From contig NZ_JALEGV010000012.1 of the NCBI RefSeq assembly GCF_022763245.1, positions 248,001 to 312,000 of the forward strand: a DNA stretch of 64,000 bases. The letters are read 5' to 3'. The first letter of the stretch is position 1. Each line of letters begins with the position of its first letter. Source of the DNA: Oricola sp. Its GTDB lineage: Bacteria > Pseudomonadota > Alphaproteobacteria > Rhizobiales > Rhizobiaceae. Both the position numbers and the translations under genes were made by a program. This document shows, piece after piece, positions 4,356 to 30,353 of this stretch. The notes under the pieces were generated by a model that worked only from the letters and a program-made list of their open reading frames with translations, did not search any database and was not told where the DNA came from.

Positions 4356-4371
4356 TCGTCTGAACGGCCTA
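4356..4371 (-). promoter_or_regulatory. Shared operator motif, copy upstream of ipdC
   Basis: Read towards ipdC the site is TAGGCCGTTCAGACGA, continuing TG. It lies 68 bp before the ATG, in the 92-bp gap between the SDR at 4381 and ipdC. It has the same polarity and the same GACGATG end as the copies at 17931, 21057, 21088 and 30263. Confidence 0.6.
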
Positions 4372-4380
4372 CTGACCGCA

Positions 4381-5145
4381 TCAGTAGAAGACGCGCCCGC
4401 CATTCACCATCAGCGTCTGCCCCGTGATGAAACGAGCCTTGTCGCTCGACAGGAACACGACCGCATTCGCGATGTCTTCGGGTTCGCAGAGTTCGCCGAG
4501 CGGGATCGCGTTCTTCGCACGATCATAGGCGTCCTGCGGGATGCGCTGCATCGCCCGGGTGTTGGTCGGTCCGGGGCAGACGGCGTTGACATTGACCTTG
4601 AACGGCCCGAGTTCGCGCGCCAGCGCCCGCGTGAAGCCGAGCACGCCGGACTTGGCGGAAGCGTAGTCCACCGTGCCGATGTCGCCATTCATCGCCGAAT
4701 CCGACGAGATCGACACGATCTTCCCCGTGCGCCGCTCGCGCATCTCCTCGACCACCTGGCGCGAACACATCAGCGTGGTCATCAGCGAGACGTTGATGAC
4801 GAATTGCAGCGTTTCCGGCTTCGCCTGGTAGAACTCCGAATAGTTCTCGCGCGCCGTCTGGCCGATATTGTTGAGCAGCATGTCGATCGGGCCGAGGTCC
4901 TTGCGAGCCTGGTCGAAGGCGGCGGTCACCTCCTCCTGCTTGGTCAGGTCGCCGACGACCGGCACCGCGCGCACGCCCTTCGCCTTGACGAGATCCGCCG
5001 TCTCGGCAAGCGCGTCCGCCTCGCGATCGAAAACCGCGACGTCGGCGCCTTCCTCCGCATAGGCCAGGGCGGCAGCCCGGCCGATCCCGTTGCCCGCCCC
5101 CGTGACGACCGCGATCATCCCCGCAAATGGCTTTTCCGAACGCAT
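4381..5145 (-). CDS. Classical SDR family oxidoreductase
   Basis: A 254-aa SDR with TGAGNGIG at 15-22, LNNIG in place of NNAG (91-95), and catalytic S148, Y161 and K165 (DYASAKSG). D40 at the end of the second beta strand (VAVFD) favours NAD over NADP. The C-terminal GQTLMVNGGRVFY is typical. It lies downstream of the NTF2-like gene at 5176 (30 bp gap) in the operon led by the acyl-CoA dehydrogenase pair. Substrate unknown; a hydroxysteroid or 3-hydroxyacyl-CoA dehydrogenase role would fit the surroundings. Confidence 0.85.
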   Translation of the reverse strand: MRSEKPFAGMIAVVTGAGNGIGRAAALAYAEEGADVAVFDREADALAETADLVKAKGVRAVPVVGDLTKQEEVTAAFDQARKDLGPIDMLLNNIGQTARENYSEFYQAKPETLQFVINVSLMTTLMCSRQVVEEMRERRTGKIVSISSDSAMNGDIGTVDYASAKSGVLGFTRALARELGPFKVNVNAVCPGPTNTRAMQRIPQDAYDRAKNAIPLGELCEPEDIANAVVFLSSDKARFITGQTLMVNGGRVFY

Positions 5146-5175
5146 CGAATTCTCCTCCCGTTTTGGCCGATCCCG

Positions 5176-5745
5176 TCAACCGGGGTGGCGCTTGAACAAT
5201 TGCAGCAATGAATAGGACAGGTCGTCCGGCCCGGCTTTTCCCGGCGGGCTGCCCGCGGCAAAATCCTCGTAGGCGCTCCGATCGACCGGCCGTTTCTGCG
5301 CCCAGTCCAGGGTTATGGAGCGCGAGAGGAACCGCCACTCGCCCTGCCGGCGCCGGTAGCGATCGAGACTGCGGCTTCCGGTCACCACCTCCTCGGCGTC
5401 CGGTCCGGACGTTCGGTGATAGTTGATCTTGTAGACCTCGCCCTCGGCCTCGTCGCCGTCGATCTCGAAGGTCATGTTGACCACATAGTGGTCGGTCATT
5501 TCGTAGTTCGACAGCGCCCGCCTGACGAACGCGACATAGTCGTCGGCATTGCCGGCGAACATGTTGCCGTGCTCCTCGAACGCGTCATCGTGATAGAGGC
5601 TGCGCAACAGCGCGAAATCGCGCCTGTCGACCGCGCGCGAATAGGCCGTCACCAGCCGGCGCAGGCTTTCGCGGGCGATGGTTTCCTCGATCGTGGCGTC
5701 GCGGATGCCCAAGGACGCCTCACCCAAGTCCGCCGCGTGGCTCAC
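5176..5745 (-). CDS. NTF2/SnoaL-like fold protein
   Basis: A 189-aa protein of the SnoaL_4 type: the helix ARESLRRLVTAYSRAVDRRDFALLRSLYHDDAFEEHG, then strands ending in YRRRQGEWRFLSRSITLDW. The only start that keeps the N-terminal helix is a GTG at 5745. It overlaps the end of the FadE30-like gene by 26 bp and has no clear ribosome site, which suggests translational coupling. Dehydratase or isomerase chemistry is possible; no catalytic residue can be assigned with confidence. Confidence 0.75.
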   Translation of the reverse strand: MSHAADLGEASLGIRDATIEETIARESLRRLVTAYSRAVDRRDFALLRSLYHDDAFEEHGNMFAGNADDYVAFVRRALSNYEMTDHYVVNMTFEIDGDEAEGEVYKINYHRTSGPDAEEVVTGSRSLDRYRRRQGEWRFLSRSITLDWAQKRPVDRSAYEDFAAGSPPGKAGPDDLSYSLLQLFKRHPG

Positions 5746-6904
5746 GCGGCATGCCGAGCCCCTGCTCGGCGATCAGGTTGAGCTGGATCTCGTTGGTGCC
5801 GCCGTAGATCGTGTCGGCGCGGCTGAACAGGAACAATTGTTGCAACCGCTCGCGGCGCAGGTCGCCGCCGACGAGGTTGGCCTCGGTTCCCATGACGTCC
5901 ATGGCGAGCTTGCCGAGATCGCGATGCCAGTTGGACCAGTGATACTTGTAGCCCAGCCGTTCGCGGCGCGCCTCTTCCGACGTGTCCTCGGACAGGACCC
6001 GCATCGCCAGGTAGCGCATGGCCCGCAGGCCCACCCAGGCCTTGGCGATGCGCTGGCGCATCGCCGGCGAGCGCGAAGCCCCGTTCTCGCGGGCGATCGC
6101 GCAGATCAGGTCGAGTTCCTGCGCGAAGGCCATCTGCTGGCCGAGCGTCGAGATGCCCCGCTCGAAGCCGAGCAGGGCCATGGCGATCTTCCATCCCTCG
6201 CCGGGCTTTCCGACGACATGCTCCGGTTTCGCCACGGCATCGTCGAGGAACACGGAATTGAACTCCGCGCCGCCGCCGATCTGCCGGATCGGCTGCACCT
6301 CGACGCCGGGCTGGTCGAGAGGCATCAGCAGGAAGACGAGGCCGTTTCGGCCGACCGATCCCTCTTCGCACCGCGCCAGAACGAAGATCCAGTCCGACAG
6401 ATGCGCGAGCGACGTCCAGACCTTCTGGCCGCTCACGTGCCAGTCGCCCGTCGACGGATCCTGGCGGGCGCGCGTGCGAATGTTGCCGAGATCGGAGCCG
6501 GCGCTCGGTTCCGAATAGCCCTGGCACCAATATTCCGTGCCCGCGCGAATGCCCGGCAGGAACCGGTCCTTCTGTTCCTGCGTGCCGAACGCGATCAGCG
6601 TCGGGCCCATCAATCCTTCGCCGATATGGCCCATGCGGCCGGGACCGCCGGCGATGCCGTATTCCTCCTGGAACACGACCTGCTCGGCGACGGACAGGCC
6701 GCGGCCGCCATGCTCTTCCGGCCAGCCCGGGCACGTCCAGCGTCCCGCGGCCAGTTCGCGTTCCCATTCCTTGCGCAACTCGGGGAAGGCGTCGCCGTCG
6801 CCCGCATTGCCGCGATAGCGCAGCGGCTCGAAACGGCCCCTCAGATGGTCGGCCATCCAGGCGCGGACCTCCGTGCGCAACTGCGTCAGGGTGTCTGCGC
6901 TCAT
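5720..6904 (-). CDS. fadE30: FadE30-like acyl-CoA dehydrogenase
   Basis: A 394-aa acyl-CoA dehydrogenase with the flavin segment WCQGYSEPSAGSDL (126-139), WTSLAHLSDWIFVLAR (163-178), and a helix-G glutamate E248 (GFERGISTLGQQ) that could be the catalytic base, as in isovaleryl-CoA dehydrogenase. The C-terminal YGGTNEIQ flavin motif is present. These segments closely follow what I recall of FadE30 (Rv3560c), the 5-OH-HIP-CoA dehydrogenase that starts beta-oxidation of the HIP side chain. The ATG overlaps the stop of the companion gene at 6901 by 4 bp. Family certain; FadE30 identity likely. Confidence 0.72.
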   Translation of the reverse strand: MSADTLTQLRTEVRAWMADHLRGRFEPLRYRGNAGDGDAFPELRKEWERELAAGRWTCPGWPEEHGGRGLSVAEQVVFQEEYGIAGGPGRMGHIGEGLMGPTLIAFGTQEQKDRFLPGIRAGTEYWCQGYSEPSAGSDLGNIRTRARQDPSTGDWHVSGQKVWTSLAHLSDWIFVLARCEEGSVGRNGLVFLLMPLDQPGVEVQPIRQIGGGAEFNSVFLDDAVAKPEHVVGKPGEGWKIAMALLGFERGISTLGQQMAFAQELDLICAIARENGASRSPAMRQRIAKAWVGLRAMRYLAMRVLSEDTSEEARRERLGYKYHWSNWHRDLGKLAMDVMGTEANLVGGDLRRERLQQLFLFSRADTIYGGTNEIQLNLIAEQGLGMPREPRGGLG

Positions 6905-8046
6905 GCCGCCGCCCCTTCTTCGAACATTCCGGCTGCGATCACCGCGAGATGGTCTTCCGGCGACCCGAGAAGCGAACAGGCCGCCTGGGCGCGCTTGAAA
7001 TAGAGATGCGGATCATATTCCCAGGTGAACCCGACACCGCCGTGAAGCTGGATCGCCTCTTCCGACGCCCGGAAGAGCAGGTCGGACGCCAGGGCGCGTG
7101 CCGCCGACACCTCCCGCGCCGTCTCCGCGCCGAGCCCCGCCTCGAGGGTCGCGGCCGCGCCGTAAACGAGGGCCCTCGCCTCGGCCAGATCGACCTCAAG
7201 CCGTGCGCAGCGATGCTTGACGGCCTGGAAGGATGCGATCGTGCGCCCGAACTGCACGCGCTCGGCGACATAGGCCAGCGTCACGTCCATCACGCCGCGC
7301 GCCGCGCCGACCTGTTCCGCGGCGAGCCCCAATTGGGCGGTCGCCACGGCGCCTGCGACGTCTCGCCCCGTGTAGGCGCCTCCATCGAGGCGCGACTGCG
7401 CGCAAACGGCAAGACCGCGCATCGTCAATTCGCCGATCTGGCGGGTTCCGTCGAGCGTTTCCAGACGCCGCACCTCGTGCCCGGCGTCCCGTTCGAGGGC
7501 GAACAGGGCCAGGTCCTCGCCCAACCGGGCAGGCACGAGAACGACATCCGCGGCCTCCAGATCGATCACCTGCGCAACCCGGCCGCCCAGCCTGTATCCC
7601 GCCTCCGTGGCTTCGGCCACGACAGCGGTCGCGGAGAGCGGATCGACCGCGCCTGCGTTCCCCCAGGCCACGGCCACGGCGATCTCGCCTGCGGCGATAC
7701 GCGGAAGATAGTGTTGTCGCGCCTCGTCGCTTGCGACCGCCAGCAACAGCGGAACGCCGGCGCAGATCGTCGACCACAGGGGAACCGCCGCCAGTCTTTC
7801 GCCGGCGGCTTCCATCAGGATGGCGAGTTCGGTCTTGCCGAGGCCGAGCCCGTCATGGGCCTCGGGTACGGCCATCGCGCACCAGCCCAGTTCGCCGGCG
7901 ATCGCCGACCATAGCCCGGCGTCGAAACCCGTTCCCGCATTGACGGTCTGCCGCACCCGCTCCGACGCCGACTTGTCGGCCAGAAAGCGGCGCGCCTCTT
8001 CCCGGATGAAACGCTGTTCGTCGTTGAAAACGAGATCCATTGTCAT
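6901..8046 (-). CDS. Acyl-CoA dehydrogenase, probable partner subunit
   Basis: A 381-aa acyl-CoA dehydrogenase whose C-terminal half is well kept (QFGRTIASFQAVKHRCAR, IQLHGGVGFTWEYDPHLYFKRA). Its middle beta domain lacks the usual TEP.SGSD motif, reading VAWGNAGAVDPL instead, and no clear catalytic Glu is seen. Steroid degraders often use alpha2beta2 acyl-CoA dehydrogenases in which each subunit supplies part of the site (FadE28-FadE29 type). The 4-bp overlap with the FadE30-like gene suggests such a heteromer here. It heads the operon running down to 4381; a degenerate operator-like site lies 83 bp upstream. Confidence 0.82.
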   Translation of the reverse strand: MTMDLVFNDEQRFIREEARRFLADKSASERVRQTVNAGTGFDAGLWSAIAGELGWCAMAVPEAHDGLGLGKTELAILMEAAGERLAAVPLWSTICAGVPLLLAVASDEARQHYLPRIAAGEIAVAVAWGNAGAVDPLSATAVVAEATEAGYRLGGRVAQVIDLEAADVVLVPARLGEDLALFALERDAGHEVRRLETLDGTRQIGELTMRGLAVCAQSRLDGGAYTGRDVAGAVATAQLGLAAEQVGAARGVMDVTLAYVAERVQFGRTIASFQAVKHRCARLEVDLAEARALVYGAAATLEAGLGAETAREVSAARALASDLLFRASEEAIQLHGGVGFTWEYDPHLYFKRAQAACSLLGSPEDHLAVIAAGMFEEGAAA

Positions 8047-8128
8047 CTTCTGCTGCTATATTGGCCGGGGCATGCTGACCGCAAGCACCGTCGCCTGTGC
8101 CGGATGCCACCGCCGCCTCGTACTCGCA

Positions 8129-8144
8129 TCGTCCGAACGAAGGA
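8129..8144 (-). promoter_or_regulatory. Degenerate copy of the shared operator motif
   Basis: Read towards the acyl-CoA dehydrogenase gene at 8046 the site is TCCTTCGTTCGGACGA, continuing TGCG. The downstream half (CGGACGATG) is intact and the upstream half is degenerate. It is 83 bp from the start codon, the same range as the stronger copies. Confidence 0.4.
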
Positions 8145-8155
8145 TAGGCCCGCCC

Positions 8156-8569: not shown

Positions 8570-8702
8570 GCCGTGACCCTCCTGTTGCCGGTGATCCCCA
8601 TGGCTAGGGACAGGCGGATCACCCGCGCATCATTCAAATGAACGATGGAGACCGCCCGTCGCTGGCCGATAGTGCGGGTTTGCAGCCACGGGAGGAGCGC
8701 GA

Positions 8703-10086: not shown

Positions 10087-10216
10087 CGGGTACCCTACGG
10101 AAGTTGTGCATGATCGCGGGGGCTGATCGTTTGCAGGCCTATGCGGATTGTTGTAGGTCGCGATTTGCCCGAGAATACGGGATTCCGGATCGATCCCGGC
10201 ACTGGAAGGACAGGAC

Positions 10217-10981
10217 GTGAACCAATCGAGCGCAGCCGCGGAAAAGGATGGCGAGGGCCGCAACGGGCGCGCCTCGGCGTCTCGAAGCACGAGCGAAGCG
10301 CGTAGCGCCACCAATCCGCGCAAGGAACTCGTTCGCGAACAACTGATCGACATCGCCGCGCAGCTGTTCGACAGCAAGGGCTACGTCCAGACGAGCATCA
10401 ACGACATCGCCCGCGCCATCGGCCTCGGACGGTCGGCCGTCTACCACTATTTCCGCAACAAGGAGGAGATCCTCGCCGCCCTTGTGGAATCGGAAGCGCT
10501 GACGCCGTCGCACCAGCTCCAGGACCTGATGGAGCAGCCGAACCTGACGCCGCGAGACCGGTTGCGCCGCGCGATCGTCGACGGCATCAAGCGCCGCCTG
10601 TCCTCCGGTTCCCGCTTCATCCTGTTCGCCCGCCTGGAGACCCAGATTCCCGACGAACTCGGCCCGCGCTACAATCAGGGCCGCCGCGACATCTACGATT
10701 TCTACGTGCGCTGCATCGCCGAGGGCATCGAATGCGGGGAGTTCCGCGAGGTCGATCCGAAGATCGCCGCGTTTGCCGTGATCGGCATGGCGAACTGGAC
10801 GTCGCGCTGGTATTCGCCGGCCGGCGTGCGCCAGCCCGAGGAAATCGGCGAAATCATCGCCGATTTGGCGCTGCACGCGCTGACGGTTCGTGAAAGCGCG
10901 GTGCAGGACGACACGGGCATCCGCAACACGCTCGGCCAGATGCGCGAACAGATCGACTGGCTCGAACGCAATCTCACCTGA
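10217..10981 (+). CDS. TetR-family regulator, KstR2/acyl-CoA-responsive type
   Basis: A 254-aa protein with a basic, low-complexity first 35 residues, then a TetR_N domain (LIDIAAQLFDSKGYVQTSINDIARAIGLGRSAVYHYFRNKEEILAALV). The C-terminal segment containing ANWTSRWYSPAGVRQPEEIGEI is typical of TetR proteins that sense acyl-CoA esters, including KstR2, the repressor of HIP catabolism in actinobacteria. It starts at GTG 10217 with AGGA upstream. It lies centrally among the steroid genes, so it is a candidate owner of the shared operator motif. A perfect-dyad version of that motif starts 21 bp past its stop. Confidence 0.85.
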   Translation: MNQSSAAAEKDGEGRNGRASASRSTSEARSATNPRKELVREQLIDIAAQLFDSKGYVQTSINDIARAIGLGRSAVYHYFRNKEEILAALVESEALTPSHQLQDLMEQPNLTPRDRLRRAIVDGIKRRLSSGSRFILFARLETQIPDELGPRYNQGRRDIYDFYVRCIAEGIECGEFREVDPKIAAFAVIGMANWTSRWYSPAGVRQPEEIGEIIADLALHALTVRESAVQDDTGIRNTLGQMREQIDWLERNLT

Positions 10982-11001
10982 TATCCGCCAAGCCGGCCGC
11001 C

Positions 11002-11017
11002 TAGTCCGTTCGGACTA
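11002..11017. promoter_or_regulatory. Perfect-palindrome version of the shared operator motif
   Basis: TAGTCCGTTCGGACTA; the dyad extends one base further on each side (11000-11008 with 11011-11019). It lies between the TetR stop (10981) and the LysR start (11174). It matches both halves of the polar sites found elsewhere and also contains a T-N11-A LysR box, so either neighbouring regulator could bind it. Confidence 0.6.
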
Positions 11018-11173
11018 GGGAGCCTGTGACCGCGGCGCGTATGATCGGGCTCGATCTCGTTGCGGGAGGAGGCCGGGACAGATGAACCGCGACAATCCGG
11101 ACGGCCGCACCGCCGTTTCCGCGTACCTTCGACATCCGACCTGGCCTTTCCTCGCCGTTGCGGATGCGACACG

Positions 11174-12124
11174 ATGATCCTGCGCAACCTCGCCAAGTTC
11201 GATCTGAACCTCCTGCAGGTCTTCTCCGCCGTCTACAGCGAGAGCAGCATCACCCGCGCCGCGGACTCCCTGAATGTCACCCAGCCGGCGGTCAGCAACA
11301 GCCTCGCCAAGCTACGTGAGATCTTCGGCGACCCGCTCTTCGTGCGCGCGAGGCACGGCGTCGCGCCGACGCCGCTGGCGAACGCCCTGATCCATCCGGT
11401 GACCGAGGCCCTGACGTCGCTCGACCGGGCGCTTGCGGCGCATCAGTGCTTCGATCCCGCCGCGAGCGAACGCATCATGAGCTTCAGCATGAGCGATTTC
11501 GCCGAGGCGATGATCCTCGCACCCTTCGTCGGCGCGGTGAACCGGCGAGCCTCGCGCATCACGATCCGCAACAATTTCATCGCCGAACGCGATCTGTGCT
11601 TCGGCCTCGCCTCCGGCGAGATCGACTTCGCCATCGAGTCGCATCCGCTGCGGGAACCCGACATGGGAAACCGACTGCTCCTGGAAGACGAGTTCGTCTG
11701 CGTGATGCGGGCGGACCATCCCGCCGCTTCCGGCGCGTTCACGCTGGAGACCTATCTTTCGCTCGACCACCTGCACATCTCCAACCGCCCGCGCAACGCC
11801 AACCTCGTGGATGGAGCGCTCGCCCGCGTGCGGCAGAAGCGGCGGGTGGCGGCGACCCTCGAACACTGCCTCGGCGCCGGCGCGATCCTTCAGCAAAGCG
11901 ATCTGTGCCTGACGATCCCGAGAGGCTTCGTGAGCCGGTTCCTGTCCGACGACTGTTTCGTCACGCGACCGCGCCCCTTCCGGATGCCGCCGCTGAGAAC
12001 CTGGCTGTACTGGCATCCGACGACGGAAAACAGCCCGGCCCACAACTGGGTCCGGCAGGTGATGGACGACTGTTTCCCCACGCCGCACACGCTTGCCACG
12101 GCACTGCATCATAACTCGCCGTGA
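11174..12124 (+). CDS. LysR-family transcriptional regulator
   Basis: A 316-aa LysR protein of the NodD/NahR/LinR-like branch. The N-terminal winged helix-turn-helix is clear (FDLNLLQVFSAVYSESSITRAADSLNVTQPAVSNSLAKLRE, then FGDPLFVRARHGVAPTPLA), followed by a periplasmic-binding-like effector domain. I chose ATG 11174 (MILRNLAKFDLNLL) rather than the longer open frame from 11060 because the family begins there. The gene precedes the FrhB-aminotransferase-SMP30-RidA block on the same strand and is its likely regulator. The effector is unknown. Confidence 0.85.
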   Translation: MILRNLAKFDLNLLQVFSAVYSESSITRAADSLNVTQPAVSNSLAKLREIFGDPLFVRARHGVAPTPLANALIHPVTEALTSLDRALAAHQCFDPAASERIMSFSMSDFAEAMILAPFVGAVNRRASRITIRNNFIAERDLCFGLASGEIDFAIESHPLREPDMGNRLLLEDEFVCVMRADHPAASGAFTLETYLSLDHLHISNRPRNANLVDGALARVRQKRRVAATLEHCLGAGAILQQSDLCLTIPRGFVSRFLSDDCFVTRPRPFRMPPLRTWLYWHPTTENSPAHNWVRQVMDDCFPTPHTLATALHHNSP

Positions 12125-12248
12125 TGAGTGTCATTCAGACTGGCGATTTGTTCCCGCAAACCGGCGCAACCTAGAATTCCTCCCGTGTGCCGGACCTCCG
12201 ACGTGACCGCGTGTCGCCCGGAATTCCCGGCATGCAGGGAGGATATGC

Positions 12249-13565
12249 ATGCGGGTCGCAGAACGGGTGGAAGACATCGTGACATCCGGGCTGTGCACCG
12301 GATGCGGCATGTGCGAGAGCCTGCTCGGCAGCGACACGCTGCGCATGGACCTCTCGCCGGAAGGCTTCATGCGCCCGCGCCAGATCCGCACGCTCTCCAA
12401 GGCCGACGAAGGAGCGGTCATGCAGGCCTGCGCCGGGCACCGCCAGGTCGGGCCGGAGCCGGTCGGCATCGAGCCGCACCGAATGTTCGGATCGTGCCTG
12501 CATCTCGCCAAGGGCCATGCGACGGCTCCCGACATGCGCTTCGAGGGCGCGACCGGCGGCGTGCTGACGGCGGTCGCCGCCTTTCTGGTCGAAGAGAAAC
12601 TGGTCGACGCGATCATCCAGATCGGCGCGTCCGATTCAGATCCCTTCGCCAACGAGGTTCGGTTCAACACGACGCGTGAAGAGATCGTCGCCTCGGCGGG
12701 CTCGCGCTACGGGCCGGTCGCGCCGCTGACGCAGGTCCACGCGGCGCTCGACAGCGGCAAGCGCTTCGCCTTCATCGGCAAGCCCTGCGACGTGGCGACC
12801 CTGCGCAACCTGGCGAAGACCGATCCGCGGGTCGATCGGCAGATTCCCTACATGCTCGCCATGTTCTGCGGCGGCTCGCCCAGCGTGTCGGCCACCCACA
12901 ATGTCGTGCGACGCTTCGGCGAGGACCCGCGCGAGATCGCCGAATTCCGGTATCGCGGCCGCGGCTGGCCCGGACCGACCTTCGTGCGGACCCGGAAAGG
13001 CACGGTCCACCGGCAGAGCTACGACGACACCTGGTTCGGCGACCTGACCTTCGAGCTCATGTTTCGCTGCAAGATCTGCGCTGACGGGCTCGGCGAACAT
13101 GCCGATCTGGTCGGCGGGGATTGCTGGGTCATGGAAGACGGCAAGCCGAGCCACCGCGAGATGGGCGACGGCTGGAACATCGTGATCGGCAGGACGACGC
13201 GCGGCGCCGAACTCGCCGCGAAGGCCGTCGAAGCCGGCTACCTCCACGAAGAGCCGTTCACGATCGCCGAATTCGAAAAGATGCATGACGACCACGCGCT
13301 GAAGAAGCGCTCCGTGTTCTGGCGCCTGCTCGCATTGACCGCCACACGCCAGCCCCGGCCGCGATACGAGCGGTTGCGCGTCGCCGAGGCCGGATGGCGC
13401 AACGCCAGCTGGCGCGAGAGATGGGCCGCATTCCAGGGCACGTTCCTGCGCTCTGTCGCAGGACGCAACAGGGAAAGCGGGATCGGTTCGGGCAGCTTCG
13501 TGCTCGAAGAGACGAGAAACGACATCGAGAAACCGGCAAGAGGAGGAGAACCACATGCCGCTTAA
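12249..13565 (+). CDS. Coenzyme F420 hydrogenase/dehydrogenase beta-subunit (FrhB) family Fe-S flavoprotein
   Basis: A 438-aa protein of the FrhB/HCAR/BciB family. It has an N-terminal cluster motif C16-x2-C19-x2-C22 (CTGCGMC) and further cysteines at 61, 180 (GKPCD), 207 (FCGG), 274, 277 and 292; the second signature is CKICADGLGEHADLVGGDCW. Family members reduce F420, chlorophyll precursors or conjugated double bonds using Fe-S and FAD. F420 synthesis is not visible here, so a reductive step on an organic substrate fed by ferredoxin seems more likely. GGGAGG lies 7 bases before the ATG. It overlaps the aminotransferase gene by 11 bp. Family confident, substrate unknown. Confidence 0.8.
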   Translation: MRVAERVEDIVTSGLCTGCGMCESLLGSDTLRMDLSPEGFMRPRQIRTLSKADEGAVMQACAGHRQVGPEPVGIEPHRMFGSCLHLAKGHATAPDMRFEGATGGVLTAVAAFLVEEKLVDAIIQIGASDSDPFANEVRFNTTREEIVASAGSRYGPVAPLTQVHAALDSGKRFAFIGKPCDVATLRNLAKTDPRVDRQIPYMLAMFCGGSPSVSATHNVVRRFGEDPREIAEFRYRGRGWPGPTFVRTRKGTVHRQSYDDTWFGDLTFELMFRCKICADGLGEHADLVGGDCWVMEDGKPSHREMGDGWNIVIGRTTRGAELAAKAVEAGYLHEEPFTIAEFEKMHDDHALKKRSVFWRLLALTATRQPRPRYERLRVAEAGWRNASWRERWAAFQGTFLRSVAGRNRESGIGSGSFVLEETRNDIEKPARGGEPHAA

Positions 13566-14775
13566 CCACCTGCGCTCGAAGGCGTCCGGCACGGGGCCGG
13601 CGCTCTTCTTTCCCGACCCGGAAGTTCCGGCAGTCTTCAATTTCGACCAGGGCCTGGCGGCTCCGGAAACCTTTCCCCTCGCCGATCTCGAACGGCTGGC
13701 GAAAGGCGTGGTGGATCGCGACGGCCCCTCCGTGCTCGATTACTTCGACCCGAAGGTCGGCTACGAGGAACTCGTCTTCGGCTATCGCGGATTGCGCACG
13801 CAGATCGCCAACCGCATCGAGCGGATGCAGGGCCGCGCGCTCGGCCATATGGGCGTCATACTGACGTCCGGTTCGGTCCAGGGCATCGCGCTGGCCATGC
13901 ACGGATATCTCGACAAGGGCGACATCGTCGCGGTCGAGGCGTCGTCCTTCCCCTATGCGCTGCGTTTTGCGGAAATGTCCGGCGGCGAGGTGCGCCCGGT
14001 CCCCGTCGACGCCGACGGCATGGACATCGACGCGCTGGAGACGCTGATCGCCGACATCGCGTCCGAGGGACGACGGCTGAAGATGGTCTACACCATCCCG
14101 ACCTTCCAGACGCCGACGGCGACCGAGATGTCGGTCGAACGCCGGCAACGCCTGGTCGATCTCGCGGACAAGCACGATTTCATCATCATCGAGGACGACG
14201 TCTATGGCGACCTGCGCTTCGCAGGCGAGCCGCTGCCGACGCTGCTGTCGCTCGACAAGGGCGGCAAGGTGATCCAGTGCGGTTCCTTCAGCAAGATCAT
14301 CGCCCCGGCGCTGAGACTGGGCTGGATCGCTGGCGAGGCCGAGGCGATCGAACCGCTCGCCGCGATGCGCCAGGACCTCGGCGTGGCGCAATGGATCGCC
14401 CGCATCATGGAAGCCTACATGCTGGAGGGGCTGCTCGAACCGCATCTGGAAAAGGCGGCTGCGGTCTATGGCAGCAAGGCGCGGGTGGCGGCGGAGGCGA
14501 TGCGCGCGCATTGCGGCGACTTCGTCCGGTTCACCATGCCGCGCGGCTCCTTTTACCTCTGGGTGGAGATCGACGACCGGATCGACTGGGACAAGGCGTC
14601 GGCCGAAGCCGCGCGGGAGGGTATCTTCTTCAGGCCCGGCGAACGCTTCATGGGCGAAACCGGCGGCCGCAAGTTCCTGCGCCTCGCCTACAGCCATGTG
14701 AGCGAGCAGGTCATCGCCGACGGCATCAAGCGGCTCGGCGCGATCCTGCGCGCCAACGTCCGGGCCGCCGCATGA
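13555..14775 (+). CDS. PLP-dependent class I/II aminotransferase (MocR-domain/2-aminoadipate aminotransferase type)
   Basis: A 406-aa fold-type I PLP enzyme without the GntR domain of MocR. The Schiff-base lysine is K247 (CGSFSKIIAPALRLGW), the aspartate of the PLP nitrogen is in EDDVYGDL (213-220), and the IPTFQTPT segment at 181-188 is typical. It probably transfers an amino group between an amino acid and a 2-oxoacid. A GGAGGAG site precedes ATG 13555, and the 3' end overlaps the lactonase gene by 4 bp. In an operon with a reductase, a lactonase and a RidA-like protein, an imine or enamine intermediate is plausible. Confidence 0.85.
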   Translation: MPLNHLRSKASGTGPALFFPDPEVPAVFNFDQGLAAPETFPLADLERLAKGVVDRDGPSVLDYFDPKVGYEELVFGYRGLRTQIANRIERMQGRALGHMGVILTSGSVQGIALAMHGYLDKGDIVAVEASSFPYALRFAEMSGGEVRPVPVDADGMDIDALETLIADIASEGRRLKMVYTIPTFQTPTATEMSVERRQRLVDLADKHDFIIIEDDVYGDLRFAGEPLPTLLSLDKGGKVIQCGSFSKIIAPALRLGWIAGEAEAIEPLAAMRQDLGVAQWIARIMEAYMLEGLLEPHLEKAAAVYGSKARVAAEAMRAHCGDFVRFTMPRGSFYLWVEIDDRIDWDKASAEAAREGIFFRPGERFMGETGGRKFLRLAYSHVSEQVIADGIKRLGAILRANVRAAA

Positions 14776-15623
14776 TCCCGGCACGGACGATAGCGACCGG
14801 GTTTGCCTATCCGGAAGGGCCGCGCTGGCACGACGGCCAGCTCTGGTTCGCCGACCAGCATGACGAAACGGTCCACATCCTGGCGCCCGACGGCGCCAGG
14901 AAGGGCTCCTTTCACGTGCCCGGCGGCCCGTCCGGCATGGGATGGACCACGGACGGCGATCTGCTCGTGGTCTCGATGGACGAGCACAAGGTGTTCAGAC
15001 GGAGCGGCGACGCCCTGGCGCTGCATGCCGACCTCTCCTCCCATCACCGCTACCAGACGAACGAAATGGTCGTCGACCATCACGACCGCGCCTATGTCGG
15101 CAATATCGGTTTCGATTTCGAAGCCGGCGAAGAGGTCAAACCGACCATGCTGCTGCTCGTGGAAAGCGACGGCACGGTTTCCGTCGCGGCCGACGACCTG
15201 CTGTGCCCGAACGGCAGCGTCATCACGCCGGACGGCCGGACGCTCATCATCGCGGAATCCCTCGCCCACCGCCTGACGGCCTTCGACATCGCCGCCGACG
15301 GCTCCCTGTCCAACCGCCGGGTGTTCGCGGAGGTTCCCGGCCATGTGCCCGACGGCATCTGCCTCGACGCAGAGGGGTATGTCTGGGCCGCGTCGCCATT
15401 CACCAATTCGGTGATCCGGGTGCGCGAAGGCGGCGACATCACCGACACGGTCCGCATCGACGACGCCGGCGCCTATGCCTGCATTCTCGGCGGGCCGGAC
15501 GGACGCGACCTCTATGTGTGCTGCGCCAATCCTGGCATGCGGCCGGCAACCGTCGAACAGCGCGGCGGCCGCATCGACGTGGCGCGAGTGACTGTGCCCG
15601 CCGCGAAAGGGGCACGGCCATGA
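14772..15623 (+). CDS. SMP-30/gluconolactonase-family lactone hydrolase
   Basis: A 283-aa six-bladed beta-propeller. The metal ligands expected for the family can be placed: E15 (YPEGPRW), N97 (YQTNEMVVD), N147 (LCPNGSV) and D194 (VPDGICLD). Enzymes of this group hydrolyse sugar or other lactones with Ca or Zn. The ATG overlaps the aminotransferase stop (ATGA), and the stop overlaps the RidA-like start in the same way, so the three are translated as a unit. Substrate unknown. Confidence 0.85.
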   Translation: MIPARTIATGFAYPEGPRWHDGQLWFADQHDETVHILAPDGARKGSFHVPGGPSGMGWTTDGDLLVVSMDEHKVFRRSGDALALHADLSSHHRYQTNEMVVDHHDRAYVGNIGFDFEAGEEVKPTMLLLVESDGTVSVAADDLLCPNGSVITPDGRTLIIAESLAHRLTAFDIAADGSLSNRRVFAEVPGHVPDGICLDAEGYVWAASPFTNSVIRVREGGDITDTVRIDDAGAYACILGGPDGRDLYVCCANPGMRPATVEQRGGRIDVARVTVPAAKGARP

Positions 15624-16015
15624 ACGCCGCCACGCGCCGCGAATGCCTGAACCCGCCCGGCATGGCTTTTGCCGGCATGAGCCAGGGCGTGCGGGTGGGC
15701 GACACGATCCATGTTTCCGGTCAGGTCGCCTTGCGCGACGGCGGGGTGATCGGCATCGGCGATCCCGAAGCACAGGCCCGGCAGTGCCTCGCCAACATCG
15801 AAGCTGTGCTGAACCTGTCGGGCGCAGGACTGGCGGATGTCGTCGCACTGCGCTGCTATCTCGTCGATGCGGCGCACTACCCTGCCTATTCGGCGGTCAA
15901 GAACGCGCTCTTTCCCATCGATCCGCCTTGCGGAACCGCGGTGATCGTGAAGGGCCTCTTGCTGCCGGAACTGCTGATCGAGGTCGAAGCCGTCGCGACC
16001 TTGCCGGGGGGCTGA
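15620..16015 (+). CDS. RidA/YjgF-family protein lacking the imine-deaminase arginine
   Basis: A 131-aa protein of the Rid superfamily (VRVGDTIHVSGQVAL near 25-39, ANIEAVLNLSGAGLADVVALRCYL). In true RidA enzymes a conserved arginine precedes the final VEIEAIA strand. Here that region reads VIVKGLLLPELLIEVEAVA, with lysine at the expected place, so ordinary imine deaminase activity is doubtful and a different Rid subgroup is likely. It is the last gene of the LysR-FrhB-aminotransferase-lactonase block (4-bp overlap upstream) and converges on the VOC gene with only 14 bp between stops. Confidence 0.8.
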   Translation: MNAATRRECLNPPGMAFAGMSQGVRVGDTIHVSGQVALRDGGVIGIGDPEAQARQCLANIEAVLNLSGAGLADVVALRCYLVDAAHYPAYSAVKNALFPIDPPCGTAVIVKGLLLPELLIEVEAVATLPGG

Positions 16016-16029
16016 CGTCGCCCGGCAGA

Positions 16030-16626
16030 TCAGTCGAACACCACCTTCGCGTCGGTGAGGAAATCGCCATAGGTGTCGTAGCGGATCAGGGGATCGCCGC
16101 CCGTCCAGGACTTCAGCCGCTCCGACACCGCCTCGCGCGCCTTGCGCCAGCGCGGCGGCACGATTTCCAGCATGGGGCCGACCACGGACGGCGACTTGTA
16201 ATAGACGATCGACTGGTCCTGCCCCACGATCGGGATCACCAGTTCGGCCTCGTAACCGGCCTGCTCGACACGGCGCCGGGCCTCGTCATAATCGGGCACC
16301 CAATAGCCCAGATGCTGCAGGCCTTCGCGCCCCGAGGCGAGGAACTCGGTATAGGGCGACGGGGCGTCGTTCACCTGCTGGATCAGTTCCAGCTGGACAT
16401 CGCCGATGAAGCCGAACGCCAGGCGCATTTCGATGCTGACCTGTTCACCGCGGAACCGGGACGGATTGGGCGGCCGGCCTGTCCCGTTTTCCAGGAACAG
16501 GAACGGTCCGATCCCCAGCACGTCGATCCAGTGGCGAACCGCGGCGTCAAGGTCGCGAACGACGAAGCCGAGCTGCGTCGCCGGCCCAAGAACGGGTTTC
16601 AGATCCGCATGCTGGTCGGTCTGCAT
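16030..16626 (-). CDS. VOC/glyoxalase-fold protein
   Basis: A 198-aa protein with two beta-alpha-beta-beta-beta modules: LGFVVRDLDAAVRHWIDVLGIGPF (about 18-41) and, later, LQHLGYWVPDYDEARRRVEQAGYEAELV. Methylmalonyl-CoA epimerases, dioxygenases and isomerases share this fold. The histidine and glutamate ligands are incomplete by eye (H109 in LQHLGYW and E156 in MLEIV may serve). It lies 11 bp after the thiolase gene and is probably co-transcribed. In a pathway ending in methyl-branched acyl-CoAs, epimerase activity would make sense, but this is inference. ATG 16626 is chosen over longer open sequence because the domain starts there. Confidence 0.7.
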   Translation of the reverse strand: MQTDQHADLKPVLGPATQLGFVVRDLDAAVRHWIDVLGIGPFLFLENGTGRPPNPSRFRGEQVSIEMRLAFGFIGDVQLELIQQVNDAPSPYTEFLASGREGLQHLGYWVPDYDEARRRVEQAGYEAELVIPIVGQDQSIVYYKSPSVVGPMLEIVPPRWRKAREAVSERLKSWTGGDPLIRYDTYGDFLTDAKVVFD

Positions 16627-16637
16627 GGCGTCCACCG

Positions 16638-17843
16638 TCAGTTGAAGATCTCGAAGAGGCCGGCCGCGCCCATGCCGCCGCCGACACACATCGTCACGAC
16701 GCCGTATTTCGCCTTGCGGCGGCGTCCCTCGACCAGCACATGCGCCGCAGCGCGCGCGCCCGTCATGCCGAACGGATGGCCGACCGCGATGGCGCCGCCA
16801 TCGACATTGAGCTTGTCCGGATCGATCCCGAGCGTGTCGCGGCAATAGAGCGCCTGGCTGGCGAAAGCCTCGTTCAGTTCCCACAGGTCGATGTCGCCGA
16901 TCTTGAGCCCGTGCTGCTTCAGGAGCTTCGGAACCGCGAAGACCGGGCCGATGCCCATCTCTTCCGGCGGGCAACCCGCAACCGCCATGCCGCGATAGGC
17001 CCCCAGCGGCTCGAGCCCGCGGCGGGCGGCTTCGGCGGCTTCCATCACCACCAGCGCGGCCGCACCGTCGGAGAGCTGCGACGCGTTGCCCGCGGTCACG
17101 TATTCGCCCACCTTGACGACTTCGCCGTCGGCGAAAACCGGCTTCAGCTTGGCCAATCCCTCCAGCGTGGTGTCGGCGCGGAAACCCTCGTCATGCGTCA
17201 AGGTGACGTCATGGACACTTGATTCCTTCGTCTCCCGGTCCACCACTATCTTGCGCGACGGCATTGCAACGATTTCCTCGTCGAAGCGGCCCGCTTCATG
17301 GGCGGCGGCCGTGCGCAACTGGCTTGCCAGCGCGAAAGCGTCCTGCGCCTCGCGGCTGACGCCGTATTTGCGCGCCACGATCTCGGCCGTCTCGATCATC
17401 GTCATGTACATGTGCGGCCAGCGCTTCAACACCGTCTCGGACTGGTTGCGGTAGGTGTTCTTGTGCTTGTTCTGCGTCAGGCTGATCGATTCCACGCCAC
17501 CGGCGACGACCGTCTCCATGCCGTCGACGATGACCTGCTTGGCCGCGATCGACACGGCCATGAGCCCGGACGAGCACATGCGATCGACCGTCATGCCGGG
17601 CACGCTGTCCGGAAGGCCGGCGGCGGCTGCGGTCAGCCGGCCGATATTGTAGCCCTGTGTGCCCTGCTGGGCCGAGCAGCCCATGATCACGTCTTCGACC
17701 GATGCCGGATCGACGCCCGCCCGCCGGACCGCCTCGCGCGCGGCATGGCCCGACAGCGCCGGCGCTTCGGTGTCATTGAACGCACCGCGAAAGGCCTTTC
17801 CGATGGGCGTACGAGCGACAGATACGATGACGGCTTCACGCAC
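16638..17843 (-). CDS. Thiolase (acetyl-CoA acyltransferase), candidate FadA6 role
   Basis: A 401-aa thiolase with the complete catalytic set: nucleophile C90 (VDRMCSSGL), H356 (VGHPFGMTG) and C386 ([10 protein letters not shown]). NEAFA is present as ELNEAFASQ. It cleaves 3-oxoacyl-CoA to acyl-CoA and acetyl-CoA. In the mycobacterial HIP pathway FadA6 does this late in ring-carbon degradation; the location in this locus suggests the same role, though sequence alone does not separate FadA5, FadA6 and AtoB types. It starts at GTG 17843 with GGAG 7 bases upstream. A shared operator copy lies 88 bp upstream. Confidence 0.85.
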
Positions 17844-17930
17844 GAGAATTCTCCGAAACTGGCAACAAAGGCGGCCGGATCGGAACCCGGCATCTCGGCC
17901 AAGCCGTAGGACACGCGACGAAAGGCAGCA

Positions 17931-17946
17931 TCGTCTGAAGGGACTA
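17931..17946 (-). promoter_or_regulatory. Shared operator motif, copy upstream of the thiolase gene
   Basis: Read towards the thiolase the site is TAGTCCCTTCAGACGA, continuing TGCTG. It is 88 bp before the GTG start and sits in the 117-bp gap between the thiolase and the SDR at 17961. It is one of the best matches to the consensus. Confidence 0.65.
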
Positions 17947-20995: not shown

Positions 20996-21056
20996 TCGCC
21001 TTCCTCCCTGCGTCTCATCATTGCGCGCAGAATCGAACAGCCTCGCGTGCATCGCA

Positions 21057-21072
21057 TCGTCTGCATGGATTA
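21057..21072 (-). promoter_or_regulatory. Shared operator motif, copy for the 20995-17961 operon
   Basis: Read towards the epimerase-like gene the site is TAATCCATGCAGACGA, continuing TGCG, 62 bp before its ATG. It forms a back-to-back pair with the copy at 21088, with 15 bp between them, in the divergent promoter region. Confidence 0.6.
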
Positions 21073-21087
21073 GCCGGGCCCGCCGCA

Positions 21088-21103
21088 TACCTCATACAGA
21101 CGA
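21088..21103 (+). promoter_or_regulatory. Shared operator motif, copy for the SDR-ligase unit
   Basis: TACCTCATACAGACGA, continuing TGCATC, on the plus strand, 59 bp before ATG 21162. Its polarity is opposite to the copy at 21057, so each site points at its own gene. Confidence 0.6.
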
Positions 21104-21161
21104 TGCATCGCCCCCGGCGCGATGATGGTTTCGCAGTCACGACGGCTACAGGGTGGAGGGC

Positions 21162-23512: not shown

Positions 23513-23565
23513 AGGGTGTCAGATTAAGGTCGAATTCGGCACTCAGGCTGGAAAGACGACGGAGT

Positions 23566-27060: not shown

Positions 27061-27062
27061 GG

Positions 27063-27785
27063 CTAGACTCCGAGATAGGTCTGGATTTTCTGCTCGCTGG
27101 TTGCGAGATCGGCCTTGTCGATGGTTTCCACGACCTTGCCGTGCTCCACGATGCAGAAGCGGTCCGCTATCTTCGCCGCGAAATGAAAGTTCTGTTCGAC
27201 GAGCAGGATCGTGTAGCCGCGTTCCTTGAGTGCCGAGATCACCGAGCCGATCTGCTTGACGATCACCGGGGCAAGTCCTTCGGTCGGCTCGTCGAGAAGC
27301 AGGGTCTTCGCCCCGGTGCGCAGGATGCGGCCGATGGCCAGCATCTGTTGTTCGCCACCGGAGAGCTTGGTGCCCTGGCTGTGCCAGCGCGCCTTCAGGT
27401 TCGGGAAGAGCTCCAACAGGTCCTTGTTGCTCATGCCGCCAGGCGCGACCACGGGCGGCAGTTCGAGGTTCTCGCCGACGGTGAGGCTGGAGAAGATACC
27501 GCGCTCTTCCGGACAGTAGGCGACGCCCACCTTGGCGACCACTTCCGGCGGCGCCTTGGAGATGTCCTTGCCGGAGAAGACGATTTCGCCGCTTCTGCGG
27601 CGCATCAGCCCCATGATCGCGCGCAGGGTCGAGGTCTTTCCGGCGCCGTTGCGCCCGAGAAGCGTGACCAACTCGCCCGCACGCACGTCGAAGGAGACGC
27701 CGTGCAGCGCCTTGCTCTCGCCGTACCATCCTTCGAGATTGCGCACCTGGAGAAGCGGTCTGGAAGCCGAAGCGCCGTCAGTCAT
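27063..27785 (-). CDS. livF: LivF-type ABC transporter ATPase
   Basis: A 240-aa ATPase with Walker A GRNGAGKT (44-51), signature LSGGEQQ (141-147), Walker B LLLDEP (162-167) and the family segment YCPEERGIFSSLTVGENL. LivF and LivG form the ATPase pair of HAAT importers. It starts inside the end of livG (8-bp overlap) and ends 2 bp before the fused permease gene. Confidence 0.93.
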   Translation of the reverse strand: MTDGASASRPLLQVRNLEGWYGESKALHGVSFDVRAGELVTLLGRNGAGKTSTLRAIMGLMRRRSGEIVFSGKDISKAPPEVVAKVGVAYCPEERGIFSSLTVGENLELPPVVAPGGMSNKDLLELFPNLKARWHSQGTKLSGGEQQMLAIGRILRTGAKTLLLDEPTEGLAPVIVKQIGSVISALKERGYTILLVEQNFHFAAKIADRFCIVEHGKVVETIDKADLATSEQKIQTYLGV

Positions 27786-28548
27786 CGGTTCCTCCGATAT
27801 AGGCTTCGATCACGCGGTGGTCCTGCGAGACCGTCTGGTAGTCGCCCTCGGCCAGCACCCGCCCGAGCGCCAGAACGGTGATCGTGTCGGACAGGGCGGC
27901 GACGACGGACAGATTGTGTTCCACCATCAGGATGGTCCGGTTTGCCGAGACCCGGCGGATGAGTTCGGCGATGCGGTCGACGTCCTCGTGGCCAAGGCCG
28001 GAGGTCGGCTCGTCGAGGAGCAGCATCTCCGGATCCAGCGCCAGCGTCGTCGCGATCTCGAGCGCGCGTTTTCGGCCATAGGACAAAAGGGTCGCCGGCC
28101 GCTCGCTATAGGCGAGAAGCCCGACCTGATCGAGCAGTTCGTCGATCCGCCCGTCCAGCGCCTTCAGGGCCTTTTCGCTCTGCCAGAAGCGATAGGAGTT
28201 GCCGAGAGGACGCTGCAGCGCGATACGGACGTTCTCGCGCACCGTCATGCGCGGAAAGACAGCGGAAATCTGGAACGAGCGCACGATACCCCGGCGCGCG
28301 ACCTGCTCGGGGCGCAGGCTCGTGATGTCCTCGCCATTGTAGCGGATGGTCCCGCTGCTGGGCCGCAGGAACTTCGTGATGAGGTTGAACGTGGTGGTCT
28401 TGCCGGCGCCGTTCGGCCCGATCAGCGCGTGGATGGAGTGCCGGCGCACCTTGAGATCGACATCCTTGACGGCATCGAAGCCGAAGAACGTCTTCGTCAG
28501 GGCCGAAGCCTCGATAATGTAGTCCGCCGTTGCGGCACCGGCTGTCAT
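27778..28548 (-). CDS. livG: LivG-type ABC transporter ATPase
   Basis: A 256-aa ATPase with Walker A GPNGAGKT (44-51), FQISAVFPRMTVRENV, Walker B LLLDEP and the LivG-specific insert after it (TSGLGHEDV, HNLSVV). The ABC signature is the variant LSYGRKR, common in LivG-like proteins where LSGGQ is degenerate. Its ATG overlaps the stop of the DUF1330 gene (ATGA). It pairs with LivF below it. Confidence 0.92.
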   Translation of the reverse strand: MTAGAATADYIIEASALTKTFFGFDAVKDVDLKVRRHSIHALIGPNGAGKTTTFNLITKFLRPSSGTIRYNGEDITSLRPEQVARRGIVRSFQISAVFPRMTVRENVRIALQRPLGNSYRFWQSEKALKALDGRIDELLDQVGLLAYSERPATLLSYGRKRALEIATTLALDPEMLLLDEPTSGLGHEDVDRIAELIRRVSANRTILMVEHNLSVVAALSDTITVLALGRVLAEGDYQTVSQDHRVIEAYIGGTDD

Positions 28549-28853
28549 GTTCCCTGCTCTCCAACATCGAGGCCGTCCAGAAGCACGCCGCGCGCTTTCG
28601 CCGCGCGCTGACGCAATGCGATCAGCTCCTGATATTCGTCGGAGTGATAGAAGCTGTATGCCGCCTCATAGGTCGGGAACTCGACGACCGACAGGCTGGC
28701 CGGTGCCCAGCCGCCCTCGAGCGGCGTCGGGTCTGCGCTGTTGGCGAGAAAACGGCCCCCGCTCGCCGCCATGACCGGCCCCGCGACGCGGCGATATTCT
28801 TCCCATGCCGCCGGATCGGTGATCTCGATCTCAAAGATCATGTAGCTCGGCAT
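28545..28853 (-). CDS. DUF1330 family small protein
   Basis: A 102-aa ferredoxin-like (dimeric alpha-beta barrel) protein: MPSYMIFEIEITDPAAWEEY at the start, GGRFLANSADPTPLEGGW in the middle, then VVEFPTYEAAYSFYHSDEYQEL. Function is not established for the family. It has a GGGAGG site 7 bases before its ATG and sits between the binding-protein gene and livG in the transport operon, an unusual place. A role in handling the imported compound is possible but unproven. Confidence 0.85.
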   Translation of the reverse strand: MPSYMIFEIEITDPAAWEEYRRVAGPVMAASGGRFLANSADPTPLEGGWAPASLSVVEFPTYEAAYSFYHSDEYQELIALRQRAAKARGVLLDGLDVGEQGT

Positions 28854-28910
28854 GAACAGCCTCCCTGCGCAATTCGGACGGATTTCTGGCGTGCAAACGC
28901 GCGATGGACC

Positions 28911-28941
28911 GGGAGAGGCGAGCCCGAGCCGCCTCTCCCGT
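28911..28941 (-). other. Stem-loop after the binding-protein gene
   Basis: An 11-bp perfect stem (28911-28921 with 28931-28941) and a 9-nt loop, 15 bases after the stop of the substrate-binding protein on the minus strand and 57 bases before the DUF1330 gene. No T-run follows, so it is more likely an mRNA-stabilising or attenuating hairpin, as often seen after binding-protein genes, than a full terminator. Confidence 0.6.
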
Positions 28942-28956
28942 CGTTGCCGTTCGAGC

Positions 28957-30150
28957 TTACTTGCCGATCGTGCAGGCCGATTCCGAATAGGGCTTGAACG
29001 CCTCCTCGGCAGGGATGGCCGCGATCAGCTTGAAGAAGTCGTCCTTCTCCTCGACCTCCGCGGGCGTCTTCACCTGCAGCGAGTACTGGTCGTGGATTAG
29101 CCGGCCATTCGGATACATCGTGCTGTTGTGAATGAAGAAATCCTCGATCTCCATCTCATGCATGACCTTGAGCACGGCATCCGGATCGTCGGTGCCGGCC
29201 GTCTCCACGGCGTCGAGATAGTTCGACACGGCCGAATAGGTTCCAGCCGCGATCCAGCCCGGCGCATTGCCGGTGATTTCCATCATCCGCTTGCCGAACT
29301 CGTAGGATGCCTCGTCCTGCTTCCAGAACCACGGCACGCCGAACCGGACGCCCTGCATCGCTTCGACGCCGATGGCGCGCGCGTCGGACTGGTGCAGAGC
29401 CGGCAGCGTGACCTGCATGCCCGACGCCATGATGCCGAATTCCTGGACCTGCTTGACCGCGTTGACGAGATCCGGGCCGCTGACATTGAGGATCAGCGCT
29501 TCGGCACCGGAGGCCTGGGCCTGCAGCAGGTAGGACGAGAAGTCCGTGGAGCCGAGCGGCGCCCGGATCTTGCCGGCGACCGTGCCGCCGCCGTCGACGA
29601 TCGCGGCTTCTTCCGTCGCTTCCTGCACCTTGCCGGCTTCATAGTCCGGCGACAGGATGAAGAAGGACTTGACGCCGTCGGATAGCAGCGCCTTGACCGG
29701 GCCGGTGAACATCGAATGGGCGTCATAGGCCCATGCGATCACGTGCCCGTTGCAATCCGCCTCGGTCGGCTTGTCGGTCAGCGGCGACACGAACAGGCCG
29801 ATCTTGCCGGTTTCCCCGATCAGCGTGTTCACGCCAAGCGCGATGGCGGAGTTGGCCATGTCGGCGATGACGTCGACGCCGTCCTGCTCCAGCCACTGGC
29901 GCGCGATGGCCAAGCCGACTTCGGGCTTGTTCTGGTGGTCGGCGGAAACGAGTTCGATCGGCTTGCCGAGAGCCGTTCCGCCGTGGTCCTTGATCGCCAA
30001 TTCGACGGCGTGAACGACTTCCGTCCCCCCCAACGCCGAAAAGGACGAACTCTGGTCGTTGAGCACGCCGATCTTCACTGCACCGTCCTCGGCCAGGACG
30101 GCAGTGGACGGAATCGACAACGCAATCGCCAACGCGATCTTGAGCTTCAT
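28957..30150 (-). CDS. Liv/HAAT-type ABC transporter substrate-binding protein
   Basis: A 397-aa periplasmic protein with a signal peptide of about 20 residues (IALAIALSIPSTAVLA, then EDG). The mature part follows the Peripla_BP_6 pattern: VKIGVLNDQSS, ELVSADHQNKPEVGLAIARQWLEQDGVDVIAD, and later SYLLQAQASGAEALILN. Cysteines at C176-type positions and near the C-terminus (ESACTIGK) could form a disulphide. It heads the liv operon, 113 bp downstream of a shared operator copy, so uptake seems to be co-regulated with the catabolic genes. The ligand may be an organic acid and not an amino acid. Confidence 0.88.
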   Translation of the reverse strand: MKLKIALAIALSIPSTAVLAEDGAVKIGVLNDQSSSFSALGGTEVVHAVELAIKDHGGTALGKPIELVSADHQNKPEVGLAIARQWLEQDGVDVIADMANSAIALGVNTLIGETGKIGLFVSPLTDKPTEADCNGHVIAWAYDAHSMFTGPVKALLSDGVKSFFILSPDYEAGKVQEATEEAAIVDGGGTVAGKIRAPLGSTDFSSYLLQAQASGAEALILNVSGPDLVNAVKQVQEFGIMASGMQVTLPALHQSDARAIGVEAMQGVRFGVPWFWKQDEASYEFGKRMMEITGNAPGWIAAGTYSAVSNYLDAVETAGTDDPDAVLKVMHEMEIEDFFIHNSTMYPNGRLIHDQYSLQVKTPAEVEEKDDFFKLIAAIPAEEAFKPYSESACTIGK

Positions 30151-30262
30151 GATTTTCCTCCCTTTTTTGTCCGATGCACGAATTCATCGACAACACGGGC
30201 GCTTCTACCGACAGGCCGGAGCGCGCCACGGATAACGTTCAGTGCATCGCAGCAAGTAAACA

Positions 30263-30278
30263 TCGTCCAAAGAGACTA
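30263..30278 (-). promoter_or_regulatory. Shared operator motif, copy upstream of the liv operon
   Basis: Read towards the binding-protein gene the site is TAGTCTCTTTGGACGA, continuing TGTT, 113 bp before ATG 30150. It lies in the 283-bp divergent region between the liv operon and the ipdAB operon. Confidence 0.6.
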
Positions 30279-30337
30279 TCGGACCCGGCGACGCTCCGCT
30301 GTGATTTGATCAACGAATTCCGCCCGTTCCGGTCCCG

Positions 30338-30353
30338 TAGTCTCATCGGACGA
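30338..30353 (+). promoter_or_regulatory. Shared operator motif, copy upstream of the ipdAB operon
   Basis: TAGTCTCATCGGACGA on the plus strand, 81 bp before ATG 30434. Together with the copy at 30263 it makes a back-to-back pair, as at 21057/21088. The rest of the 283-bp gap (30151-30433) shows no gene. Confidence 0.65.

Follow-up and report, generated by a model that had tools for sequence, protein, structure and literature searches.

A polar box upstream of steroid degradation genes

The stretch of Oricola sp. DNA analysed here (the window: 64,000 nucleotides, C33:248001-312000, where C33 is a contig label of the 5.6 Mb (5,632 kb) genome) carries genes resembling those of steroid lower-pathway (HIP) degradation, and upstream of them recurs an 18-bp box, TAGTCCnTnCRGACGATG. 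Names like ipdC are taken from the initial annotation, while the protein families matched in this analysis are less specific: the domain types fit ipdA/B/C-type, acyl-CoA dehydrogenase and thiolase genes, with named-family matches below their cut-offs (FabK, the best NCBIfam match of the gene named ipdC, 234 bits against 453; IpdE2 for the dehydrogenase at 6901, 171 bits against 450). A gene for a LuxR/GerE-type candidate activator of 347 aa spans the left edge of the window (C33:247376-248419, plus strand; window part 1-419, with 625 bp to the left) and was here translated whole and compared with its orthologs. The initial annotation was made from the window, which holds just the last 419 bases of this gene.

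All seven box sites that had been named were found by pattern and matrix scans within a few bases of where the initial annotation placed them. Five are followed by -10-like sequences on the minus strand: upstream of ipdC (4354-4371; CATCAG at 4328-4333), two acyl-CoA dehydrogenase genes (start 8046; 8127-8144; CATCCG at 8101-8106), the thiolase gene (start 17843; 17929-17946; TACGGC at 17903-17908), the epimerase-like operon (21055-21072; GATTCT at 21029-21034) and the liv-type transporter operon (start 30150; 30261-30278; GAACGT at 30235-30240). On the plus strand, boxes precede the SDR-ligase unit (21088-21105; TGGTTT at the -10 place, 21126-21131) and the QOR-ipdAB operon (30338-30355; -10-like CATGTG at 30376-30381), and both back-to-back pairs described for divergent promoters are present. 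Two additional window boxes with a -10-like sequence lie on the plus strand. One is a weak copy upstream of the SnoaL-SDR-TetR genes (8630-8647; GATAGT at 8668-8673), whose box part, at 11.2 bits, is the lowest among 15 listed; the other points towards the LysR gene (11002-11019; TATGAT at 11040-11045). The latter falls within what had been called a perfect palindrome: an inverted repeat of 20 bp with perfect 9-bp arms does occur there (11000-11019), but its TT centre is non-palindromic.

The recurrence of the motif exceeds chance. With mismatches to the pattern allowed up to a set number, three or fewer gave 10 matches in the window, compared to a mean of 0.67 and a maximum of 3 in 100 dinucleotide shuffles. 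Genome-wide, two mismatches or fewer selected 20 places, eight of which cluster inside C33:227057-278278, a span of some 51 kb in the 5,632 kb genome. The looser three-mismatch pattern was dropped for genome-wide use because background dominates its matches (150, against 115 for the reversed control pattern). An 18-bp matrix built from seven window copies located further copies left of the window, and a matrix covering box and -10, trained without this genome and then applied to C33:208001-312000, recovered 15 promoter readings: nine in the window and six, from five dyads, to its left (C33:227057-245770). Right of position 30355 in the window, this extended matrix found no site scoring at least 12, and the plain 18-bp matrix a single one (12.8 bits, at 58892). 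Left of the window, another ABC transporter of the branched-chain type also has a box of its own (L062:1395-4781; C33:229395-232781).

In other genomes, too, the box holds conserved places in front of the orthologs. The cluster is shared by five relatives whose TetR ortholog has 63-79% identity, and the matrix places the motif before the same orthologs in the same orientation; likewise in G036, G222, G114, G277, G226, G283, G171 and a second contig of G060. Polarity was sorted for 115 sites scoring at least 17, from 17 regions of 15 genomes (G165 and G304 yielded zero sites) annotated by tblastn matches, so that gene starts are approximate. Ninety-five sites face a gene start within 350 bp, 42 of them with a start behind as well (divergent spacers), while six have a start only behind, eight have none near and six fall within approximate gene limits. 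The weaker exceptions are of three sorts, for example SDR/SnoaL intergenic sites facing away from the SDR-TetR genes (G277, G226, G019). Box-to-start distances resemble each other within ortholog groups: examples are the 13 enoyl-CoA hydratase promoters, at 47-70 bp, and the 12 ipdC promoters, at 50-91 bp. Because sites and genomes share descent, counts of them are not independent. Taken together, these results support the initial proposal that a common operator-like element of fixed polarity joins the transcription units into one regulon.

Distance to the -10 element

An adenine at offset 39 downstream of the box was found in 41 of 60 sites from six genomes. With this genome left out, it was present in 67 of 103 alphaproteobacterial and 82 of 117 other sites, and in this genome it occurs in 11 of 12. 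A thymine at offset 43 was found in 42% of the alphaproteobacterial and 61% of the other sites, while at the other offsets, 18-37, adenine made up 6-21%. In the gammaproteobacterial set, offsets 38-43 resemble a -10 hexamer; no conservation of a -35-like hexamer was seen.

If offsets 38-43 serve as the -10, transcription would start near offset 50-51 and the dyad would be centred near -42.5 to -43.5. Class II activators, LuxR-type among them, bind near -42.5. The fixed distance to the -10, the lack of a conserved -35 and the dyad near -42.5 therefore correspond, given these putative start points, to the geometry of a class II activator-dependent promoter. Such a position, at a fixed distance from the -10, would account for one half of the dyad always facing the gene.

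A LuxR-type regulator gene accompanies the box

The LuxR/GerE-type protein matches GerE (PF00196) with 28.2 bits (cut-off 23.5), and its helix-turn-helix hardly changes across 12 orthologs, in contrast to the variable N-terminal part. The predicted structure contains two sensor-like domains and the helix-turn-helix, at modest confidence (mean predicted local distance difference test (pLDDT) 72.1, predicted template modelling score (pTM) 0.44). This model matches GAF/PAS sensor proteins, VqmA and TraR at template modelling (TM) scores below 0.4, which offers a hint only, and a search with the regulator alignment gave no PDB match at E 0.001 that would represent a solved close relative.

Among 101 relatives, ipdC (E <= 1e-80) was found in seven and a strong LuxR-type ortholog (E <= 3e-82) in the same seven, while a TetR ortholog was found in six and was missing in G036. 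There, the genes ipdC and ligase, the enoyl-CoA hydratase operon and the divergent liv/QOR pair all keep their boxes; G036, of the same family as the window genome, is a draft assembly in 140 contigs with 96% completeness, and the absence of TetR there alone would be weak evidence. Across 394 family genomes, ipdC occurs in 20 and the LuxR-type ortholog in those 20 plus G222. TetR at 60% identity or more was likewise found in 20, not in G036, with two further genomes at 38 and 41%. In G222 (C1:474645-490006; L185, L186), the LuxR-type and TetR genes are adjacent and boxes are present, while ipdC was not found.

Boxes were counted per genome in 75 chosen genomes, with at most one mismatch and the reversed pattern as control. 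The 21 family genomes with the regulator contained 182 matches against 18 in the control, while the 37 family genomes without it contained 12 against 19. Ten distant genomes with strong matches to the regulator model gave 38 against 14 in total, with a clear excess in G465 (7 against 0; same class as the window genome), G509 (10 against 1) and G491 (10 against 0). Seven distant genomes with weaker regulator matches gave 2 against 10.

A stronger test than G036 came from more distant genomes, through a contig scan with the LuxR-type alignment; the best 80 of 91 loci were analysed, with flanks ending at 10 kb. All 38 alphaproteobacterial loci had at least one site of at least 16 bits (138 sites in total), and TetR was present in 17 of their flanks. 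Of the 42 non-alphaproteobacterial loci (Pseudomonas, Endozoicomonas, Marinobacter and others), 39 had at least one such site (125 sites), compared to 1-10 matches in all (mean 3.5) for ten column-permuted matrices. None of these 42 flanks contains a TetR ortholog, and 16 of the genomes concerned, whose loci hold 71 of the sites, were also found to lack one when searched whole. At a locus on a Caballeronia plasmid, five boxes accompany a regulator relative of 38% identity. As negative control, loci of low-identity LuxR paralogs gave one match in 46 kb (13 loci) and one in 88 kb (24 loci), and the scan of a Rhizobium leguminosarum LuxR paralog locus found no box. Sites of the form TGGTCCATTTGGACTATG were observed at the Cupriavidus plasmid loci L287 and L289, suggesting a variant box.

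The genes behind the gammaproteobacterial boxes cluster by similarity. The largest cluster is a KshA-type Rieske oxygenase from 15 loci (KshA_C 261 bits, cut-off 23.3), whose gene follows the box in Pseudomonas-type loci, and other targets are SDRs, a DUF1302 protein, a NUDIX protein, a flavin reductase and an OYE-type oxidoreductase. A HsaD-like hydrolase (181 bits) and a ketosteroid-dehydrogenase-like (delta-1-dehydrogenase-like) flavoprotein (597 bits) are further targets, each below its curated cut-off (400 and 789, respectively). Given these targets, the box goes with steroid genes even where the window's lower-pathway cluster is not in the flanks.

Candidate regulators of the box

These results support a model in which the motif is a box bound by the LuxR/GerE-type activator encoded at C33:247376-248419, to which we assign a probability of about 0.85 from the sequence comparisons. 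The protein would bind as a dimer to the imperfect dyad TAGTCYnnTyRGACGATG, whose promoter-proximal half, RGACGATG, is the better conserved one. From a position centred near -42.5, the dimer would replace the missing -35 and recruit RNA polymerase to the -10 at its fixed distance. The trigger may be a steroid-derived signal that reaches the N-terminal sensor part, and the outcome would be a joint switch-on of the lower-pathway (HIP) and transporter operons, probably together with the SnoaL-SDR-TetR genes and the LysR gene.

Several observations weigh against this assignment. No box was found immediately upstream of the LuxR-type gene, the box at 21088 has no adenine at the conserved -10 offset, and inside the family TetR likewise tracks the cluster. 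Good regulator matches come without an excess of boxes in G720 (8 against 7) and G739 (1 against 1), as well as in G564, G556, G533, G459 and G572 (0-1 against 0-2). Short loci at the five strongest matches of a phylum search hold one box in 19 kb, and a Sphingobium and one Cupriavidus locus have a single site each (16.9 and 17.5 bits, respectively). Some relatives of the regulator thus do not use the box, which would fit paralogs with other functions. Moreover, the locus set was found via the regulator and is not independent, such that any regulator travelling with steroid genes would gain from it.

The initial annotation had proposed the TetR-family (TetR_C_24) gene conserved with the cluster (10217-10981, plus strand) and the LysR-family gene (11174-12124, plus strand) as the binders. 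One alternative is that TetR is a KstR2-like repressor that acts at the motif and is released by a pathway CoA thioester: dyads of such a size are common among TetR operators, and of the 21 family genomes with the LuxR-type gene, 20 also have the TetR gene. Its C-terminal family type is that of KstR2, with a distant match to 4w97 (E 8.7e-11), while 3dcf and 3vpr match better. In the passages cited, KstR2 of Mycobacterium and Rhodococcus is a TetR repressor that governs the corresponding actinobacterial genes from a 14-bp palindrome, AnCAAGnnCTTGnT (PMC3068626, PMC5380842). This operator does not match the window motif, and the single polarity and exact -10 distance of the box are not needed by a simple repressor. 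The box is moreover kept without a TetR ortholog in G036, G465, G491, G509 and 16 gammaproteobacterial genomes. The best TetR match was at most 91 bits or none in these four, in G720 and G739, and in the 16 genomes from the non-alphaproteobacterial loci, compared to 296-457 bits in five ortholog-bearing genomes. Because background TetR paralogs of the window genome itself (G000) reach 79 bits, matches of up to 91 bits are ordinary TetR proteins. In the family genomes G165 and G304, which have a distant TetR only, no site surrounds that gene. Because the ortholog is missing from entire genomes in which both regulator and box are retained, TetR was rejected as the binder, and we consider this role improbable. 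The regions upstream of TetR in 12 genomes were also compared for a shared dyad, but any exact gapped palindrome was common to at most two of them, so no TetR operator is proposed here; the TetR gene may in turn be a target, through the 8630 box.

For LysR, the most symmetric copy of the box does precede its gene. No counterpart was found in the clusters of the first five relatives, nor in any of the 80 LuxR-bearing loci above 40% identity, nor in any of 16 regions from other places, yet the box is conserved there; LysR was accordingly discarded as the binder, and we regard this possibility as extremely remote. Since the TATGAT -10 of its box is correctly placed, the LysR gene instead resembles a target. 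A regulator encoded elsewhere and co-inherited with steroid degradation could also bind the box, leaving the LuxR-type gene a mere passenger of the cluster; the evidence is associative, and only three candidate regulators were compared. However, the association of box and LuxR-type gene spans classes in which the surrounding genes differ, and LuxR-type activators are known for class II geometry, making a regulator from elsewhere unlikely. That the box follows the LuxR-type gene and neither of the two neighbouring regulators illustrates that nearness alone is no basis for assigning a regulator.

Relation to known systems

The boxes of LuxR/TraR and MalT are 18-20 bp dyads centred near -42.5, and the MalT half-site GGA(T/G)GA resembles GGACGA of the window box, while the sequences and sensor parts of these systems differ from those described here. 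The cluster resembles the KstR2 regulon in that corresponding HIP-degradation genes would stand under one regulator; there a TetR repressor acts at a 14-bp palindrome, whereas the window has a polar box, activator geometry and a LuxR-type regulator.

In Comamonas testosteroni, the LuxR-type TesR/TeiR is described as needed for steroid-gene induction (PMC6895838, PMC6678751, PMC8700777), and tesR-like genes are said in one cited passage to occur only in that species (PMC6895838). TesR/TeiR and the candidate regulator of the window are both of LuxR type and associated with steroid degradation genes; the cited passages name no binding box for TesR/TeiR. While TeiR is reported there as a membrane-located kinase, the modest-confidence model of the window protein has two sensor-like domains and a helix-turn-helix. 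EdcR of Caenibius tardaugens is described as a TetR repressor of estrogen genes with the motif TnnCnnTACnAnTnGTAnnGnnA overlapping the -10 box (PMC8700777). It shares with the window an alphaproteobacterial steroid gene cluster and a dyad close to the -10, but the window dyad lies upstream of the -10. The Caenibius progesterone cluster is likewise described with LuxR-type and TetR genes alongside (PMC12239570).

According to the passages of reviews consulted, regulation of the proteobacterial 9,10-seco pathway has been studied mainly in Comamonas. No published description of the box was found in the literature searched, which left subscription journals mostly outside. We lean slightly towards the view that box and LuxR-type regulator form one cis-regulatory code that governs the aerobic breakdown of steroids in alpha-, beta- and gammaproteobacteria. 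The sensor part would then differ between lineages, and the regulon would have moved between lower-pathway and ring A/B genes. If so, searches for the box alone would find steroid regulons and unknown steroid genes. The conserved box and regulator give direct and testable access to the steroid regulons of many genera; the box helps to place unknown genes in the pathway, and the pair could supply parts for steroid biosensors.

Other genes of the window and its genome

A search of the whole window genome with KshA_C gave one match (24.6 bits, cut-off 23.3; G000:C20:292072-292518). With only this marginal match, the upper pathway is doubtful in this genome, and the strain may live on partly degraded steroids without ring A/B degradation.

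Between the TetR and thiolase genes lie LysR, FrhB/FdhB-type, aminotransferase and RidA-type genes (window 11060-16850). As TetR and thiolase genes adjoin in G222, G226, G277 and G283, this segment looks like an insertion. Inside the ipdAB operon, an APH-type phosphotransferase gene (36526-37596) shows a weak ecdysteroid-kinase-like match.

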